From Streptomyces sp. MST-110588 (GTDB taxonomy: Bacteria > Actinomycetota > Actinomycetes > Streptomycetales > Streptomycetaceae), in contig NZ_CP074380.1 of assembly GCF_022695595.1 (NCBI RefSeq), forward strand, positions 7,530,501 through 7,594,500: a stretch of 64,000 nt of DNA, written 5' to 3'. Below, piece by piece: positions 7,994 through 31,392 of the stretch. Positions within the stretch are counted from its first letter, which is position 1; every line of letters begins with the position of its first letter. The notes below the pieces were generated by a model. That model was not told where the DNA came from. It was given only the letters and a program-made list of their open reading frames with translations, and searched no databases. The position numbers and the translations under genes were made by a program.

Positions 7994-10729
7994 TCAGCGG
8001 GCGCGCAGGCGGCGCAGATACGGGTCGTGCGCGGTGTGCGGCAGCAGCCGGACGCGGACGTCCAGGGGGAGGACCGCGTCCGGGCGGGCGAGGACGGGGT
8101 TGAGGTCGGCCTCGGCGAGCTGCGGGAGGTCGCACGCCATGCGGGACAGCCGCAGCAGGAGCTGTTCGAGACCGTCCAGGGCGACGGGGCGGCCGGTGCG
8201 GTGGCCGAACAGCAGCGGCGCGCACCGGGGAGCGGTGATCAGCGCGTGCACGTCCCGGTCCGTGAGGGGAGCCAGTCGGGCGCAGTGGTCGGCCAGGACC
8301 TCGGTGGCGGTGCCGCCGAGCCCGAAGAGCACCAGCGGCCCGAACACCTGGTCCTGGACGAGACCCGCGACCAGTTCCACGCCCCGGCCGGCCATCGGCT
8401 GGAGCACGGCCCCGGTCATCACCTCACCGAAGCGCCCGGCCAGCTCCGTATAGGCGGCGCGGACCGGTCCGGCTCCCTCCAGGTCCAGGCGCAGCGCCCC
8501 CACGTCGGTCTTGTGCAGCAGCCCGGGCCAGTACGCCTTGAGCGCCATCCGCCCGCCGCCGAGCCGCTCGGCCGCGGCCACCGCCGCGTCGGCGTCGGTG
8601 ACCCACTCCCAGGGCGGCTGCCGGATGCCGTACGCGTCCAGCAGGGCCCCGCACAGCCGGGGTCCGGCCCAGCCGCCGTCCGGACGGCGGGCCAGGAAGC
8701 CGGCCACGAGCGCCTCGGCCGTCGCGGTGTCCACGCCGTCGAGCACGGGGACGGTGCCCAGTGGTTCGGCGCGCCAGTGGGCGTAGGAGACGGCGTGGGC
8801 CAGCGCGCGGGCGGCGTCCGACGGTTCGGCGTAGGCCGGGACGGCGGTGCCGCCTTGCTGGAGGAGCCGTACCGGCACGTCCTGGTCGAGCAGGGCCGCG
8901 GCGACCGGGCGGCTCCTGACCCCGGCCGACGGGCCCAGGGCCCGCGCCGGGTCGTCCCCGGTCGCCGCGGACAGGGCGGTGGGCACCAGCACCACCAGGA
9001 CGGCGTCCACGGCGCCGTGCCGGGTCAGCAGGTCCAGGCAGGCCGCCAACCGCGTACCGGAGACGGCCGCGGTGGTGTCCACCGGGTTGACGGCCCGGGC
9101 GCCGGCGGGCAGCACGTCCAGCAGTTCGCGCACCAGTGGCGCCGGCAGCTCGGGGACACCGAGCCCGGCCTCGGCGCACGCGTCGGCGGCAAGGACGGCC
9201 GCGCCGCCCGCGTTGCTGACCACCGCGGTGCGCGGGCCGGCCGGCAGCGGCTGGGAACGCAGCAGGGCGGCGGTGGCCACGAGGTCACCGATGCTGTCGG
9301 TGGCGATGATCCCGGCCTGGGTGAACAGCGCCCGGCGGGTCATGGTGGGGGTGGCGACGGCCGCGCTGTGCGAGGCGGCGGCCCGGCGGCCGGCCGGTGA
9401 CCGGCCCGCGTCGACCGTCAGTACGGGCATCGTGCGCGCCACCCGGCGGGCGGTGCGGGAGAAGGCGCGCGGGTTGCCGAAGGACTCCAGATGCAGCAGC
9501 GCCAGATCGGTGACGCCGTCGCTCTCCCACCACTGCAACAGGTCGTTGCCGCTGACGTCGTACTTGTCGCCGAGCGAGACGAAGGAGGACACGCCGATGC
9601 CGAGCCGGGCGAGCGCGGAGAGCAGGGCGATGCCCACGCCGCCCGACTGCACGGCGATCCCGGCGGTGCCCGCGGCGGGCGGGGCCGCGGCGAACGTGGC
9701 GTCCAGCCGTACCGCCTGCTCGGTGTTGGCCAGGCCCAGGCAGTTGGGCCCCACCAGCCGCATCCCGTGCGCCCGGCAGGCGGCCAGCAGCCCCGCCGCC
9801 TGGCCGCCGTCCAGCCCGGAGGACAGGACGAGCAGCGCCTTCACCCCGCGCTTGCCGCACTGTTCGGCGACGTCGGGCACGGCCGGCGCGGGGACGGCCA
9901 GGACCGCCAGGTCGGGCACCACCGGTACCTGCTCGATGGAGGGGTAGGACGGCACGGTGCCGACGGTGTCGCCGGCGTGCGGGTTCACGGCGGTGAGCCC
10001 CCCGGTGAAGCCGTACGCGCGGATGTTGGTGAGCAGCGCGTGGCCCACCGACGAGGGCGAGCGTCCGGCGCCGACCACGGCGATCGAGGCGGGCCGCAGC
10101 AGCGGTTGGAGGCTGGCCACGTCGGCGGTGCGCCCCCGGGCGTCCACGGCGCTCAAATACCGTTCGTCCTCCGCGAGTTCGATGGTGCAGTGCACTTCCG
10201 GCCCGTCGAAGCGCCGCGCGGTGCGCAGCCCCAGGTCGGAGATCACCTTCAGCATCGGGCGGTTCTCGGTCAGGGCGTCGGCGGTGAAGGAACCGATGCC
10301 CGTCGCCCGGGCGGCGTGTGCCAGGTGTTCCAGGAGCAGGGTTCCGATGCCGTGGCTGTGCCAGGCGTCGGCGACCGCCAGGCCGATCTCCGCGCGGGCC
10401 GGATCACGGGACGAGCGGTGGAACTCGGCGGTGCCCGTGACCTCGTCCCCCACCAGTGCCAGCAGTGCCTGGTCACCGGGGCCCGCCGCGGAGCTGATGC
10501 GGTCCGCCGCCACTTCGGCGGAGCGTGTCCCCACGGTGAAGAACCGCAGCCGCAGGTTCTGCGGGGACATGCCGGCGAACAGGCGGTACACCCGGTCGCG
10601 GTCCTCCGGGCCGGCGGGCCGTATGCAGACCGTGGTGCCGTCGGACAGCAGTGCGTGCGCACTGCTCCTGCCGGTGCTGCCGGTGCTGCCGGTGCTGCCG
10701 GTCCTGCCGGGCCGCTCGGTGCTCGTCAT
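7994..10729 (-). CDS. GNAT acetyltransferase fused to NDP-forming acyl-CoA synthetase-like module (PatA-like)
   Basis: 911 residues. An N-terminal GNAT domain (about 25-180: IRPAGPEDRDRVYRLFAGMS; ADAWHSHGIGTLLLEHL) precedes a CoA-binding/ligase module (about 195-660, with RLVGPNCLGLANT) and an ATP-grasp domain (about 680-900). The NDP-forming acyl-CoA synthetase fold without clear catalytic evidence is what Pat-type protein lysine acetyltransferases use as a sensor. The GNAT-first order is that of S. lividans PatA as I recall it. It may control acetyl-CoA synthetase or other enzymes by acetylation. ATG at 10729 follows GAGGAG and overlaps the hypC stop (ATGA). The N-terminus has a GST triplet repeat from 9-bp units. 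Confidence 0.88.
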   Translation of the reverse strand: MTSTERPGRTGSTGSTGSTGRSSAHALLSDGTTVCIRPAGPEDRDRVYRLFAGMSPQNLRLRFFTVGTRSAEVAADRISSAAGPGDQALLALVGDEVTGTAEFHRSSRDPARAEIGLAVADAWHSHGIGTLLLEHLAHAARATGIGSFTADALTENRPMLKVISDLGLRTARRFDGPEVHCTIELAEDERYLSAVDARGRTADVASLQPLLRPASIAVVGAGRSPSSVGHALLTNIRAYGFTGGLTAVNPHAGDTVGTVPSYPSIEQVPVVPDLAVLAVPAPAVPDVAEQCGKRGVKALLVLSSGLDGGQAAGLLAACRAHGMRLVGPNCLGLANTEQAVRLDATFAAAPPAAGTAGIAVQSGGVGIALLSALARLGIGVSSFVSLGDKYDVSGNDLLQWWESDGVTDLALLHLESFGNPRAFSRTARRVARTMPVLTVDAGRSPAGRRAAASHSAAVATPTMTRRALFTQAGIIATDSIGDLVATAALLRSQPLPAGPRTAVVSNAGGAAVLAADACAEAGLGVPELPAPLVRELLDVLPAGARAVNPVDTTAAVSGTRLAACLDLLTRHGAVDAVLVVLVPTALSAATGDDPARALGPSAGVRSRPVAAALLDQDVPVRLLQQGGTAVPAYAEPSDAARALAHAVSYAHWRAEPLGTVPVLDGVDTATAEALVAGFLARRPDGGWAGPRLCGALLDAYGIRQPPWEWVTDADAAVAAAERLGGGRMALKAYWPGLLHKTDVGALRLDLEGAGPVRAAYTELAGRFGEVMTGAVLQPMAGRGVELVAGLVQDQVFGPLVLFGLGGTATEVLADHCARLAPLTDRDVHALITAPRCAPLLFGHRTGRPVALDGLEQLLLRLSRMACDLPQLAEADLNPVLARPDAVLPLDVRVRLLPHTAHDPYLRRLRAR

Positions 10730-11187
10730 GACAGCTCCTCGGAACGCAAGGGGGCGCGCCTGGCTTCCAGCGTCCGCCGCCCGCCCGGGGCGCCCCATGG
10801 GCCGTACGGCCCGGGCGGGGGCCGTAGGGCCCCGGACGCTGCCGCCGGTCCCTGCGGTTCTTCCGCTTCTTCTACTGCTTCCTCTGCTGTCTTTGCTGCC
10901 TCTGGTTCTCCTGCCTCCTCCGGTTCCTCGGCGGGCAGCGGTTCGCCCAGCTCACCCGCCACCGCGTCCGACATCGCCCGCAGGACGTCCAGCGTGCGGG
11001 CCGCCTCCGCCTCGTCCACGGTGGTGATGGCGAAGCCGACGTGGACCACGACGTAGTCGCCGACGGCGGCGTGCGGCGTGTACTCCAGGCACGCCTCCCG
11101 CCGTACGCCCGCGAAGTCCACGCGGGCCATGCGCAGCCCGTCGCTGTCGTACGTCCGCAGAACCCGGCCGGGGATTCCCAGGCACAT
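10726..11187 (-). CDS. hypC: Hydrogenase assembly chaperone HypC, with long acidic tail
   Basis: 153 residues, but only the first ~80 match the family, which is normally 75-95 residues. The essential N-terminal Cys2 is present in MCLGIPGRV, and the beta-barrel continues through VGDYVVVHVGFAITTVDE. HypC carries the Fe(CN)2CO group with HypD and escorts the hydrogenase large-subunit precursor. The extra C-terminal ~70 residues are Glu/Ala/Pro-rich (EEPEEAGEPEAAKTAEEAVE) and then basic; they look disordered. The gene lies five bases after hypF and overlaps the next gene by four bases. Confidence 0.93.
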   Translation of the reverse strand: MCLGIPGRVLRTYDSDGLRMARVDFAGVRREACLEYTPHAAVGDYVVVHVGFAITTVDEAEAARTLDVLRAMSDAVAGELGEPLPAEEPEEAGEPEAAKTAEEAVEEAEEPQGPAAASGALRPPPGPYGPWGAPGGRRTLEARRAPLRSEELS

Positions 11188-17950: not shown

Positions 17951-18550
17951 TCAGCGGGCGCCGCGCCCTTCGCCCTCGGTCCCGGAACCGGCCGGGGCCT
18001 GCCGGCCCGGGAAGGGAACGCTTCGATGATGCGCTTCCTGCGACGGCGCCGGTAGCAGGTGGCGGGCGATGTCCGTGGCCCAGGCGTCGATTTCCCGCCA
18101 GTCCCGGTGGTCGCCGTAGTGGCCGCCCAGGGACCGGAAGACGAGGTGTCCGAACACGGAGGTGTGGTCACGTTCGAAGGCTCCCGCGAACAGGTGGTGA
18201 TCGACGGGGGCGAGGAGGTCGCGCAGGGCGGGCAAGGGGGCCGGGGACCGGCTGCGCCGCGCGAACCAATCGCCGAGTATGCGGGCGAGCCCGACGCTGA
18301 AGAGCCACAGGGGGCGGCGGGCCAGTTCGGGGGTGTAGCGGCGCAGGTACTCGGCGGCCGGAGGCAGCCAGCGGCCGTTGTGTATGGCGCTGCCGAGCAC
18401 ACAGGCGTCGTGCTCCGGCGCGCCGGTACGCTCGTCGGCCAGGTCCGTCACGTCGGCCCGGTGGCCCTGTTGCGTGAGGGTGGCCGCGAGGCGTTCGGCG
18501 ATGCCGCGGGTGGAGCCGTGCTCCCCGGCGTATCCGACGTACACCCGCAT
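17951..18550 (-). CDS. Flavodoxin-domain protein (second of two)
   Basis: 199 residues. FMN phosphate-binding loop GYAGEHGSTRGIAERL and the LGSAIHNGRWLPPA and WLFSVGLAR loops define a flavodoxin fold to about residue 165. The C-terminal ~30 residues are Pro/Gly/Arg-rich and look disordered. It follows hypE after 59 bp and precedes the response regulator. Related in family to the protein at 5701-6201; the electron partners are not identifiable. Confidence 0.85.
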   Translation of the reverse strand: MRVYVGYAGEHGSTRGIAERLAATLTQQGHRADVTDLADERTGAPEHDACVLGSAIHNGRWLPPAAEYLRRYTPELARRPLWLFSVGLARILGDWFARRSRSPAPLPALRDLLAPVDHHLFAGAFERDHTSVFGHLVFRSLGGHYGDHRDWREIDAWATDIARHLLPAPSQEAHHRSVPFPGRQAPAGSGTEGEGRGAR

Positions 18551-26850: not shown

Positions 26851-27705
26851 TCACGTGGCGGGCAGGGGATGGTCGGGCACGTAGGTCTGCGACGCCTTGG
26901 GAGGGCGACGGTAGCCGGTGGACGGCGGCCGGGGCGGCAGCGTGAGGGCCGGCCCCGGCACCTCGTAATAGGGAAGGGTCGACAGCAGGTGCGCGATCAT
27001 GTTGATCCGGGCCCGTCGTTTGTCGTCGCTCTCGACGACGTACCAGGGCGACTCGGGGATGTCCGTATGCGCGAACATGGTGTCCTTGGCGCGGGAGTAC
27101 GCCTCCCACCGCGTGAGGGACTCCAGGTCCATGGGGGAGAGCTTCCAGCGCCGGGTCGGGTCCTCCAGCCTGCTGCGGAACCGTTCCTCCTGTACGGCGT
27201 CGCTCACCGAGAACCAGTATTTGCGCAGCAGCATCCCGTCCTCCACCAGCATCCGCTCAAAGAGCGGACACTGCCGCAGAAAGCGCCGGTACTCCTTGTC
27301 GCCGCAGAAACCCATGACGTGCTCGACGCCCGCCCGGTTGTACCAGCTCCGGTCGAACAGCACGATCTCACCGGCGGTCGGCAACTGTTCGACGTACCGC
27401 TGGAAGTACCACTGCCCCCGCTCCCGTTCGGACGGCGCGGGCAGTGCGACGATCCGCGCGACCCGCGGGTTGAGGTGCTCGGCGACACGCTTGATCGCAC
27501 CTCCCTTGCCGGCCGCGTCCCGCCCCTCGAAGACGACCACGAGCCGGACTCCCTCGGCGCGCACCCACTCCTGGACCGCCACCAACTCCGTCTGCAGCCG
27601 CAGCAGTTCACGCTCGTACAGCTTCTTGCCCAAGGTGGCGCGGGCAGCCGCTCCCGAGGTGGGGCGTGCGGCCCTTTCCCGTGCCCTTCGCCCGCCACCG
27701 CTCAC
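26851..27705 (-). CDS. ppk2: Polyphosphate kinase 2 family protein
   Basis: 284 residues, single-domain PPK2. Walker [18 protein letters not shown], Walker B/second motif [18 protein letters not shown] and lid-module residues [19 protein letters not shown] are all present. The enzyme moves phosphate between polyphosphate and nucleoside mono- or diphosphates, regenerating NTPs when respiration fails. A C-terminal Pro-rich tail ([18 protein letters not shown]) extends beyond the core. Divergent from the phosphoketolase gene across 218 bp. Confidence 0.93.
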
Positions 27706-27807
27706 CGCGCCTCACCCCCTCTTCGGCGCGCAGGTGCCGCGCGCGGCACGAAGATAGTGCCGACGCGTGCCGGGTCAACCCCCGCGTGCGACATCACCCG
27801 GCCGGGA

Positions 27808-27844
27808 CGTACGGACCGTGGCGCGTAGCGAATCGGCCCGTACG
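27808..27844. promoter_or_regulatory. Imperfect inverted repeat between ppk2 and phosphoketolase
   Basis: CGTACGGACCG (27808-27818) and CGGCCCGTACG (27834-27844) match as a dyad in 10 of 11 positions, with 15 bases between. The position, in the divergent promoter region 27706-27923, suits an operator for both genes. No family can be assigned. Confidence 0.35.
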
Positions 27845-27923
27845 ACCCTGGCGGCCCGGGCCCTGTGGGACCAGGCTGGTGCCCGCGCACGGGAAGATCC
27901 TCACCACGTTCTCGGAGGCATCG

Positions 27924-30307
27924 ATGCGGGAAGCCCCGGCAGCCACTTCGCCCGGCCCCACCGACGACGAGATCACGGCACTCGACGCCCACTGGCGCGC
28001 CGCCAACTACCTCACCGTCGGCCAGATCTACCTGATGGACAACCCCCTCCTGGCCGTTCCCCTACGGCCCGAGCACGTCAAACCCCGGCTGCTCGGCCAC
28101 TGGGGCACCTCACCCGGCCTGAACCTGGTGCACACCCACCTCAACCGGGTCATCAAGGCCCGGGACCTGGAGGCGCTGTGCGTCTGGGGCCCCGGGCACG
28201 GCGGGCCCGCGGTGCTGGCCAACTCCTGGCTGGAGGGCAGCTACTCCCGGACGTACCCGGACATCGGCCGGGACGCCGCCGGCATGGCCCGGCTGTTCCG
28301 GCAGTTCTCCTTCCCCGGCGGCGTGCCCAGCCATGTCGCGCCCCAGACGCCCGGCTCGATCCACGAGGGCGGCGAGCTGGGCTACTCCCTCGCGCACGCC
28401 TACGGCGCCGCGTTCGACAACCCCGGCCTCCTGGTCGCCTGTGTCGTCGGTGACGGCGAGGCCGAGACCGGCCCGCTGGCGGCGTCCTGGCACTCCACGA
28501 AGTTCCTCGACCCGGTGCACGACGGTGCCGTACTGCCGATCCTGCACCTGAACGGCTACAAGATCGCCAACCCGGCCGTGCTGGCGCGGCTGCCCGAGCC
28601 GGAACTCGACGCCCTGCTGCGGGGGTACGGTCACGAGCCGGTATTCGTCACCGGCGACGAGCCCCTGGCCGTCCACCGGGCGATGGCCGCCGCCATGGAC
28701 ACCGCGCTGGACCGTATCGCGGCGATCCAGCGCGCGGCCCGCGAGGAGAACGCCACCGAGCGCGCCGCCTGGCCGGTGATCGTGCTGCGCACCCCCAAGG
28801 GCTGGACCTGCCCCGCCGAGGTCGACGGCCTGCCCGTCGAGGGCACCTGGCGCGCCCACCAAGTACCGCTCGCCGCCGTCCGCGACCAGCCCGAACACCT
28901 GCGGCAACTGGAGGGCTGGCTGCGTTCGTACCGGCCCGGGGAACTCTTCGACACCGACGGCCGCCCCGGCCGCAGGTGCTGGCCTGCGTACCCGAGGGCC
29001 GGCGCAGGCTCGGCGCCACCCCGCACGCCAACGGCGGTCTGCTGCTGCGCGCCCTGCCGGTGCCCGACCTGGAACGCTTCGCGGTACCGGTCGACAAGCC
29101 CGGCGCGACCCTCCACGAACCCACCCGGATCCTGGGCGCCCTGCTGGAGAAGATCATGGTGGACACCGCCGACCGCCGTGACTTCCGGATCGTCGGCCCC
29201 GACGAGACCGCCTCCAACCGTCTCCAGGCGGTCTACGAGGCCAGCGGCAAGGCATGGCAGGCGGCGACGGCCGACACCGACGAGTACCTGGACCGGCACG
29301 GCCGGGTTCTGGAGATCCTCTCCGAACACACCTGCCAGGGCTGGCTGGAGGGCTATCTGCTCACTGGCCGCCACGGACTGTTCTCCTGCTACGAGGCATT
29401 CGTCCACATCGTGGACTCCATGGTCAACCAGCACATCAAGTGGCTGCGGGTGACCCGGCGGCTGCCCTGGCGCCGCCCCATCGCCTCGCTCAACTACCTG
29501 CTCACCTCCCACGTATGGCGCCAGGACCACAACGGCTTCTCCCATCAGGACCCCGGCTTCATCGACCACGTCCTGAACAAGAGCCCCGAAGTCGTGCGCG
29601 TCTATCTGCCGCCGGATGCCAACACCCTGCTGTCCGTGGCCGAACACGTCCTCGGCAGCCGCGACTACGTCAACGTCGTGGTCGCCGGCAAACAGCCGTG
29701 CTTCGACTGGCTGGGGCTGGAGGAGGCCCGTACGCACTGCGCCCGCGGGGCCGGCATGTGGCCGTGGGCGGGCACCGACGACGGCACCCGCGAGCCGGAC
29801 GTGGTGCTGGCCTGCGCGGGCGACGTCCCCACCCAGGAGGTGATGGCCGCCGCCGGACTGCTGCGGCAGCACCTGCCGGAGCTGTCCGTACGGGTCGTCA
29901 ACGTCGTCGACCTGGCGCGGCTGCTGCCCAAGGACGAACACCCGCACGGCATGTCCGACGCGGAGTACGACGCCCTGTTCACGCCCGACAGGCCGGTCGT
30001 CTTCGCCTACCACGGCTACCCCTGGCTCATCCACCGCCTCGCCTACCGCCGCACCGGGCACGCCCACCTCCACGTTCGCGGCTACAAGGAGATCGGCACC
30101 ACCACGACGCCCTTCGACATGGTCCTCGCCAACGACCTGGACCGCTACCGGCTGGTCATGGACGTCATCGACCGGGTTCCCGGCCTGGCCGCCCGCGCCA
30201 CCGCCGTACGGCAGGAGATGGAGGACGCCCGCACCCGCCATCGCGCCTGGATCCGCGCGTACGGGCAGGACCTCCCGGAAGTCGCCGACTGGTCCTGGAA
30301 CGCCTGA
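27924..30307 (+). CDS. Phosphoketolase (Xfp-type), apparent frameshift
   Basis: About 795 residues after correction, normal for xylulose-5-P/fructose-6-P phosphoketolase. It is a thiamine-diphosphate enzyme making acetyl phosphate and so ATP without oxygen. Family landmarks: [62 protein letters not shown] (TPP site) and, in the second frame, [19 protein letters not shown] and [11 protein letters not shown]. The first frame fails after FDTDGRP, and the second resumes [13 protein letters not shown]. One extra C in the C4 run 28964-28967 restores continuity. GGAGG lies five bases before the ATG. Confidence 0.93.
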
Positions 30308-30329
30308 CGTCCGGCCCGGTGGTATGGCC

Positions 30330-30365
30330 GGTAGCGGCGTACCCCTCGTACGGGTCGCCGGTTAC
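30330..30365 (+). terminator. Terminator hairpin after phosphoketolase gene
   Basis: CGGCGTACCC (30335-30344) pairs with GGGTCGCCG (30352-30360) with one bulge, and outer GGTA/TACC bases extend the stem. It starts 22 bases after the phosphoketolase stop and before the lanthipeptide precursor. Confidence 0.5.
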
Positions 30366-30486
30366 CCTCCTTGCCACCGGAACCGGCGGTTGCCGCGTGC
30401 CGGTGCGGGCGGTACGGGCGCACTGTGCCGCGCGCCCCGTGCAGATGTCCCACCACGGAAGCCCACCACGGAAGAAGGAGGCTGCC

Positions 30487-30609
30487 ATGGCCCTCCTGGA
30501 CCTCCAGACGCTCCCGGTCCCGGGCCGCGCGGACGAAGGCGTGGGCCCCGAAGCGAGCCAGTACAGCATCCGGTACTGTAGCTGCCTCAGCGTCCTTGCC
30601 TGCTCCTGA
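30487..30609 (+). CDS. AmfS/SapB-type class III lanthipeptide precursor peptide
   Basis: 40 residues, too short for usual gene calling. AAGGAGG lies five bases before the ATG. The leader begins MALLDLQ, the conserved hydrophobic-x-DLQ recognition box of class III lanthipeptides (AmfS and RamS start almost identically). The core SQYSIRYCSCLSVLACS contains two consecutive S-x2-S-x3-C motifs (S24/S27/C31 and S32/S35/C39), the pattern that forms labionin or lanthionine rings in AmfS/SapB. An extra Cys33 is unusual. No LanKC synthetase, transporter or regulator gene is nearby, so it is an orphan precursor. Its last 23 bases overlap the 3' end of the convergent DUF4389 gene. Confidence 0.85.
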   Translation: MALLDLQTLPVPGRADEGVGPEASQYSIRYCSCLSVLACS

Positions 30610-31279
30610 GCGCATCGCCGGCCGGGCTGTCCGCGGGGTTCCCGCTCCCCGGTTCCCGGCCGCCCTGGTCGAGCCGGAACGGCGGGTAGACGTCCGTCAG
30701 CAGGGCCGCGTAGGCCAGGACCCGCATGACCCAGCGGTTCAGGCCCAGCGTGAGCGCGTAGAGGCCCGGTGGGTAGCGGCCGGTGAAGAGCAGGGAGACG
30801 GCGGCGAACAGCACCAGCACACCGATCAGTCCGCCCCAGCGCCAGAGCCCGGAGGTGAACAGCGCGATCAGCACGTACTGCGGCAGGGCGAGCAGCCACC
30901 ACTTCACCAGCACCAGCCCCCGCGAGAGCTGCTTGGGGTAGGTGACGTCGAAGTGGGCCGGGTAGCCGGACACATCGGCCAGGCGGAACGGCGGATAGCG
31001 GTCGGTTCCCAGGGCGCTGTACGAGTAGTACACCACGCGCCAGGTCCAGCGCAGCACGCCGGTGGTGAAGTCGAACAGCCCTCGCGGGTAGCGGCCGGTG
31101 AAGAGGATGGCGAAGAACGCCACGACGCTCACCACGCCGAGCGCGAACCACAGGAAGGTCAGCACGATCCAGTGCGGGATGACGAGCAGCCATTTCACCA
31201 GCCACAGCCAGCGCGACAGCCGTGGATCGGGCGTCGCTTCCAGACGGGCCGGGTAGGGCGCAGTGGCAGGGGAGGACAT
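30587..31279 (-). CDS. DUF4389 membrane protein
   Basis: 230 residues with two repeats of the DUF4389 unit. Each pairs a hydrophobic helix (WLLVIPHWIVLTFLWFALGV; VSLLFTGRYPPGLYALTLG) with the motif LFTGRYPxGLxxFTxGxxRW and a YPPFRL segment. About four membrane helices; function unknown. Members occur in hypoxia/dormancy islands of actinobacteria. Probably transcribed with the 29-residue membrane protein 113 bp upstream. Confidence 0.87.
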   Translation of the reverse strand: MSSPATAPYPARLEATPDPRLSRWLWLVKWLLVIPHWIVLTFLWFALGVVSVVAFFAILFTGRYPRGLFDFTTGVLRWTWRVVYYSYSALGTDRYPPFRLADVSGYPAHFDVTYPKQLSRGLVLVKWWLLALPQYVLIALFTSGLWRWGGLIGVLVLFAAVSLLFTGRYPPGLYALTLGLNRWVMRVLAYAALLTDVYPPFRLDQGGREPGSGNPADSPAGDALRSRQGR

Positions 31280-31392
31280 CGGGTCCCCCTTTCACCTCGG
31301 ACGGTGAGTGCGGACGCTGTCCTGCTCAAGTGCTCGGAGCGCCTCAAGTGCGTGCCGGCGCACAGCCGGGGGACGCCGCCCGCCTCACCGCG

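Follow-up and report, generated by a model that had tools for sequence, protein, structure and literature searches.

The window analysed here, a 64-kb stretch of genomic DNA, carries a short gene on the forward strand (30487..30609, +) that codes for a peptide of 40 residues, MALLDLQTLPVPGRADEGVGPEASQYSIRYCSCLSVLACS, with an ATG start and a stop codon. A ribosome binding site, AAGGAGG (30475..30481, +), lies 5 bases 5′ of the ATG, in agreement with an earlier note on this DNA that had described a 40-codon gene with a ribosome site. The exact arrangement AAGGAGG-N5-ATG has its sole copy within the 64 kb here, 0.03 copies being expected and at least one being present in 3 of 100 shuffles. The leader part, MALLDLQ ... 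GPEA, covers codons 1–23 (30487..30555, +), with the leader/core border predicted from alignment. It is followed by the core part SQYSIRYCSCLSVLACS (30556..30606, +), in which two S-x2-S-x3-C motifs adjoin with zero residues between them; this leader and motif pair had also been described correctly. The additional Cys33, which had been placed between the rings, follows S32 and lies inside the second S-x2-S-x3-C motif.

Upstream, a gap of 179 bases separates the peptide gene from the stop of a phosphoketolase C-terminal part (XFP and XFP_C domains; 28976..30307, +). The whole phosphoketolase (27666-30307, +) is split over two frames, with XFP_N in the ORF 27666-29453 and XFP and XFP_C in the ORF 28976-30307, the split being either a real frameshift or a sequencing error. 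On the opposite strand, a convergent gene for a DUF4389 protein (30587..31279, −) has its stop inside the peptide gene and overlaps it by 23 bases. The adjoining phosphoketolase and this overlap had both been recognised previously. The window also contains hydrogenase and HypF genes, two GAF sensor kinases and two LuxR-type response regulators, so that the claim of "no regulator" in the 64 kb is not borne out.

The peptide had further been suggested to be dormancy-linked. Published OsdR sites resemble AGGGCCGATCGGCCCT (PMC5069765), and an OsdR-like (DevR-like) search pattern, GGGMC-N4-GKCCC, was derived from the consensus given in that paper and applied without a shuffle control. No such palindrome with 0 or 1 mismatch was found in the 179-bp upstream gap (30308-30486), and matches with 2 mismatches lie at 30416 and 30425. 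One-mismatch sites were found at 27661 and 27804, both 5′ of the XFP_N match (from ~27960), and at 28195 inside the phosphoketolase match; read-through from the sites 5′ of this match into the peptide gene may occur. Exact cores were located at 10799, 10819, 14112, 14177, 17995, 26231 and 46136, six of the seven in gaps between called genes and the one at 17995 inside a gene. Loose matches to GGGAC-N4-GTCCC (at most 2 mismatches) mean little, since they are rarer than in shuffles (81 observed, 122.5 expected). In S. coelicolor, ramS is among the genes upregulated in an osdR mutant (PMC5069765), which ties ramS to hypoxia control in that species; no such tie is shown for the window peptide. Dormancy control of the peptide was set aside on the lack of a 0–1 mismatch palindrome upstream, though the island has such sites elsewhere, and the suggestion is unsupported for the peptide itself.

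The peptide and its family

Two curated models recognised the peptide over residues 1–39, namely Pfam PF19402 RamS with 32.7 bits (cut-off 24.3) and NCBIfam NF033212 SapB_AmfS_lanti with 34.1 bits (cut-off 25). The peptide has the features of this family, with an M-x-LLDLQ leader, a similar length and two S-x2-S-x3-C motifs with Ser or Cys at each of the six ring positions (S24/S27/C31 and S32/S35/C39). The gene lies within a 475-aa open frame, long frames being normal at 73% G+C, and could on that ground be a chance open frame resembling a precursor. Against this stand the scores over both curated cut-offs, the singular ribosome binding site and the outcome of a resampling control. The control profile was built from 33 other two-ring precursors, whose linkers were 2–6 residues by construction, with the peptide left out. 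It gave the peptide frame 22.2 bits and the next six-frame piece of the window 5.2, and the top score in 60 Markov-resampled 64-kb windows was 10.1 bits. We regard the chance reading as close to refuted.

The G+C content per codon position (0.675/0.525/0.90) is coding-like, over only 40 codons. The peptide is already present in a predicted-protein database with a RamS domain and had thus been called as a gene, which corrects its earlier description as overlooked; a protein database search with the peptide returned the query itself as the sole match. The retention of 12/12 invariant positions (9e-6) was discarded as circular, the invariant columns having been taken from an alignment that included the peptide. 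On the combined evidence of models, motifs and resampling, we assign the gene as a genuine, stand-alone member of the known SapB/AmfS (class III lanthipeptide) precursor family, ring-forming peptides of which assist the rise of aerial filaments in related bacteria.

Within this family the core stands apart. A linker survey used the best RamS match per genome, in the 89 of 150 genomes matching NF033212. A single residue formed the linker in 35 genomes, two residues in 40 and three in 9; of the remainder, 2 had other spacing and 3 were unrecovered by the pattern. The zero linker of the peptide was thus seen in 0 of the 84 measured. Its x3 stretches are IRY in ring one and VLA in ring two; in ring one the surveyed precursors, compared by eye, mostly have LLL, LLV, LLI or LLS there. 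None of them matches its Arg and Tyr at this place, although Arg is found in the x2 stretch (SRAS) of many. The extra Cys33 and the lack of an adjacent LanKC are further departures from the family. For durhapeptin, a SapB/AmfS relative, LLDLQ is predicted as the recognition motif, and replacement of hydrophobic core residues in one relative is described as abolishing activity (PMC13380574).

Neither a sigma-70-like promoter nor an intrinsic terminator was found in 30250-30800, and the RNA around the peptide gene showed no excess stability (z 1.32). Comparison of the peptide upstream region with ram upstream regions yielded short common motifs only (E 0.75 or worse), and no AdpA-type sites were found near the gene.

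LanKC and the distant ram-type locus

A translated search with the LanKC of this genome (E <= 1e-3) gave no match in the 64 kb or in flanks of 19 kb and 18 kb, confirming the previous statement that no lanKC lies in the window. LanKC adjacency is usual at family loci, albeit outside the peptide models, and is absent for the window peptide. Together with the two model scores, this bears out the designation of the peptide as a SapB/AmfS-type orphan precursor. Genome-wide, a single LanKC gene exceeded the model cut-off (5972464-5975379), with other matches below it. Its product has RamC_N, kinase and LanC-like domains (Pfam), and a gene further downstream carries an ABC transporter domain (Pfam). 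This locus lies 1.59 Mb from the peptide gene on the same single 7.9-Mb contig.

Directly downstream of the LanKC gene is the genome's own RamS, MALLDLQMMESSEYGGGGGSVISLLLCNSHASVTLCL (5975550-5975660). Like the window peptide, it starts with MALLDLQ and has two rings and a short linker, here of one residue. It differs in its position beside LanKC, in its x3 stretches (LLL and VTL) and in its Gly-rich leader end. The first seven residues of the two peptides are identical, while 4 of the 7 codons differ; the window gene is therefore not a recent copy of the RamS gene.

Two further LanC-like matches in the genome adjoin class I dehydratase genes. In one of these regions (5728000-5745000), a single ORF at 8975-11056 of the extracted stretch encodes, in this order, Lant_dehydr_C and PCMT-type methyltransferase domains, and adjoins class I LanB-type and LanC-like matches.

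Conservation and orphan precursors in other genomes

A protein search with one genome per species revealed no ortholog of the peptide in any of 391 other same-genus genomes. Lack of conservation in neighbouring species had been named beforehand as a ground for refutation, and this result counts against the interpretation then given and against a conserved function. Across the full 392 genomes, four weak matches remained besides the query (E 0.006 to 0.02), none with the leader. In a DNA search of the same 392 genomes with 30250-31290, the DUF4389 part was matched in many genomes (best 79% among the matches listed) and the phosphoketolase end in some. None of the matches listed reached into the peptide gene, which occupies query 238-360; the listed ones to the DUF4389 part begin at query 368 or later. 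Comparable precursor ORFs were likewise absent from 29 DUF4389 loci taken from the DNA search (1.5 kb flanks) and from 80 DUF4389 loci of named genomes (flanks up to 6 kb, some shortened at contig ends). One ORF among the 29 loci met a loose pattern, with VHDLQ and without the LLDLQ box; it was judged unrelated and taken as chance.

A permissive search of 199 genomes (E <= 1) gave matches in 106. A leader-and-ring pattern scan of 29 loci from this search (L004-L032) matched four, L007, L009, L018 and L026, each of which carries two-ring, AmfS-like precursors that differ from the window peptide. At L007 (genome G151), three tandem SapB/AmfS-like precursor ORFs with nearly identical cores lie at about 1021-1640.

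Genomes of the 150-genome set other than our own held 18 extra precursor matches beyond the best one. We fetched these loci together with two best matches (G203 and G095), 20 in all, with flanks of 9 kb or less. A LanKC-like match lay close by in 13 of the 18, the one at L165 being partial (36% identity). The other five had no LanKC in the fetched stretch (G060, G051, two in G035, and G018, the last ~200 bases from a contig end). The best match of G203 had a LanKC-like match nearby, and that of G095, at a contig end, had none.

These five LanKC-less precursors are single-ring peptides, from which a profile, A1, was built. Its strong matches (E <= 2e-16) fell at six loci, distributed over 5 of the 392 genomes; five of these loci had supplied the profile and one, in G319, was new, with no LanKC within 9 kb. 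The figure of 5 genomes is a lower bound, since the search scored at most 19 candidates per genome. No A1 match was found in our own genome (E <= 0.01). At L160, L161, L162, L163 and L240 (G060, G051, G035 twice and G319), the single-ring LLDLQ-type precursor has no LanKC within ~9 kb and the genome holds one elsewhere. The single-ring orphans, that of G018 included, resemble the window peptide in their LLDLQ-type leader, their S-x2-S-x3-C motif and a LanKC found only elsewhere in the genome. They differ from it in having one ring motif only and are not its orthologs. A LanKC over the cut-off is present in all 5 genomes with single-ring orphans; since 254 of the 392 genomes have one anyway, this co-occurrence is uninformative and by itself no argument for action in trans.

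RamS with a one-residue linker seemed to go with orphans, being present in all 5 orphan-carrying genomes against 35 of 89 (0.008); the comparison was post hoc and is not relied on. Omitting our own genome, which had prompted the question, gave 4 of 4 against 34 of 88 (~0.02 by hand). These figures are uncorrected for kinship, and one of the four genomes, G018, has its orphan at a contig end.

Proposed maturation in trans and alternative readings

We propose that the peptide is a genuine class III precursor, most likely matured in trans by the genome's single LanKC 1.59 Mb away. We hold this explanation tentatively, with a confidence that stops just short of even. Specifically, the gene would be transcribed, and the distant LanKC would bind the LLDLQ leader helix of the peptide in trans, act on core serines by phosphorylation and elimination, and form one ring from S24/S27/C31 and another from S32/S35/C39. 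The ABC transporter of the ram-type locus would export the product, which would act as a surface peptide. Such modification is both possible and economical, given that the only LanKC over the cut-off is accompanied by a RamS of its own and by an ABC transporter gene. The ram/amf enzyme that the earlier note had postulated elsewhere in the genome is thus present, and modification by it stays at the level of the possible and economical.

The proposal draws on the strong ribosome binding site, the curated cut-offs passed, the gap in the resampling control, the coding-like G+C pattern and the MALLDLQ start common to the genome's own RamS. The occurrence of single-ring precursors without a nearby LanKC in other LanKC-holding genomes is in line with it. 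As our RamS belongs to the one-residue linker group, the zero linker is one step past it, and closely packed rings would be near the enzyme's normal substrate. In another class III system, a LELQL leader motif is described as critical for binding, and a Bacillus class III enzyme as binding a separately supplied leader peptide at the kinase N-lobe (PMC10604976). Function of the peptide in trans is plausible. Against maturation in trans stand the lack of an ortholog, the unusual core (IRY, extra Cys, no linker) with no known enzyme acceptance of these features, and an upstream region in which neither a sigma-70-like promoter nor a convincing motif in common with ram upstream regions was seen.

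Our confidence is held down because decay would explain the non-conservation and the unusual core at least as well. The gene may be a drifting relic, left by the loss of a second class III cluster or by a transfer, maybe with low expression and no product, which we consider a real possibility though not the outcome we would expect. No ortholog was found in the 391 other same-genus genomes, no such gene was seen beside DUF4389 relatives elsewhere, and the core is divergent. The gene lies ~0.35 Mb from one end of the 7.9-Mb contig, and such bacteria have variable chromosome arms. The adjoining phosphoketolase is split over two frames, and the 13 of 18 further precursors with a LanKC-like match close by indicate that second clusters are frequent and may disappear again. 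A relic is harder to reconcile with the intact state of the ribosome binding site, the start codon, the leader box and the two ring motifs, and the 4 of 7 differing first codons exclude a recent copy of the genome's own RamS gene. The peptide might also be made without becoming a lanthipeptide, acting unmodified or competing for the leader site of LanKC, as a kept leader box and a core departing from its relatives would allow. The presence of all six Ser/Cys ring positions makes this improbable, and no such case was met in the accessible parts of the literature searched.

Maturation in trans would have a counterpart in another lanthipeptide class. Prochlorosin precursors lie scattered, and ProcM, as in our proposal, is one enzyme for precursors encoded elsewhere; it differs in being a class II LanM, whereas our enzyme belongs to class III and its trans action is proposed only. 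Broad substrate tolerance has been reported for ProcM (PMC12328550).

A wider reading is that the ram-locus LanKCs of the genus serve scattered orphan precursors, one enzyme for several peptides, in place of the one enzyme and one local peptide so far assumed for this morphogen system. The window would then hold a second, fused-ring peptide coupled to the hypoxia island by phosphoketolase read-through. We consider this unlikely as a whole. A search of the open-licence literature by title and start of abstract found no description of an orphan SapB-type precursor, which is a weak negative. One large survey defined clusters by LanC-like proteins and sought precursors within those clusters (PMC7268733), so that a lone precursor would be missed. 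If orphan precursors are not matured in trans, they mark lost clusters; if they are, the developmental LanKC makes more products than have been counted.
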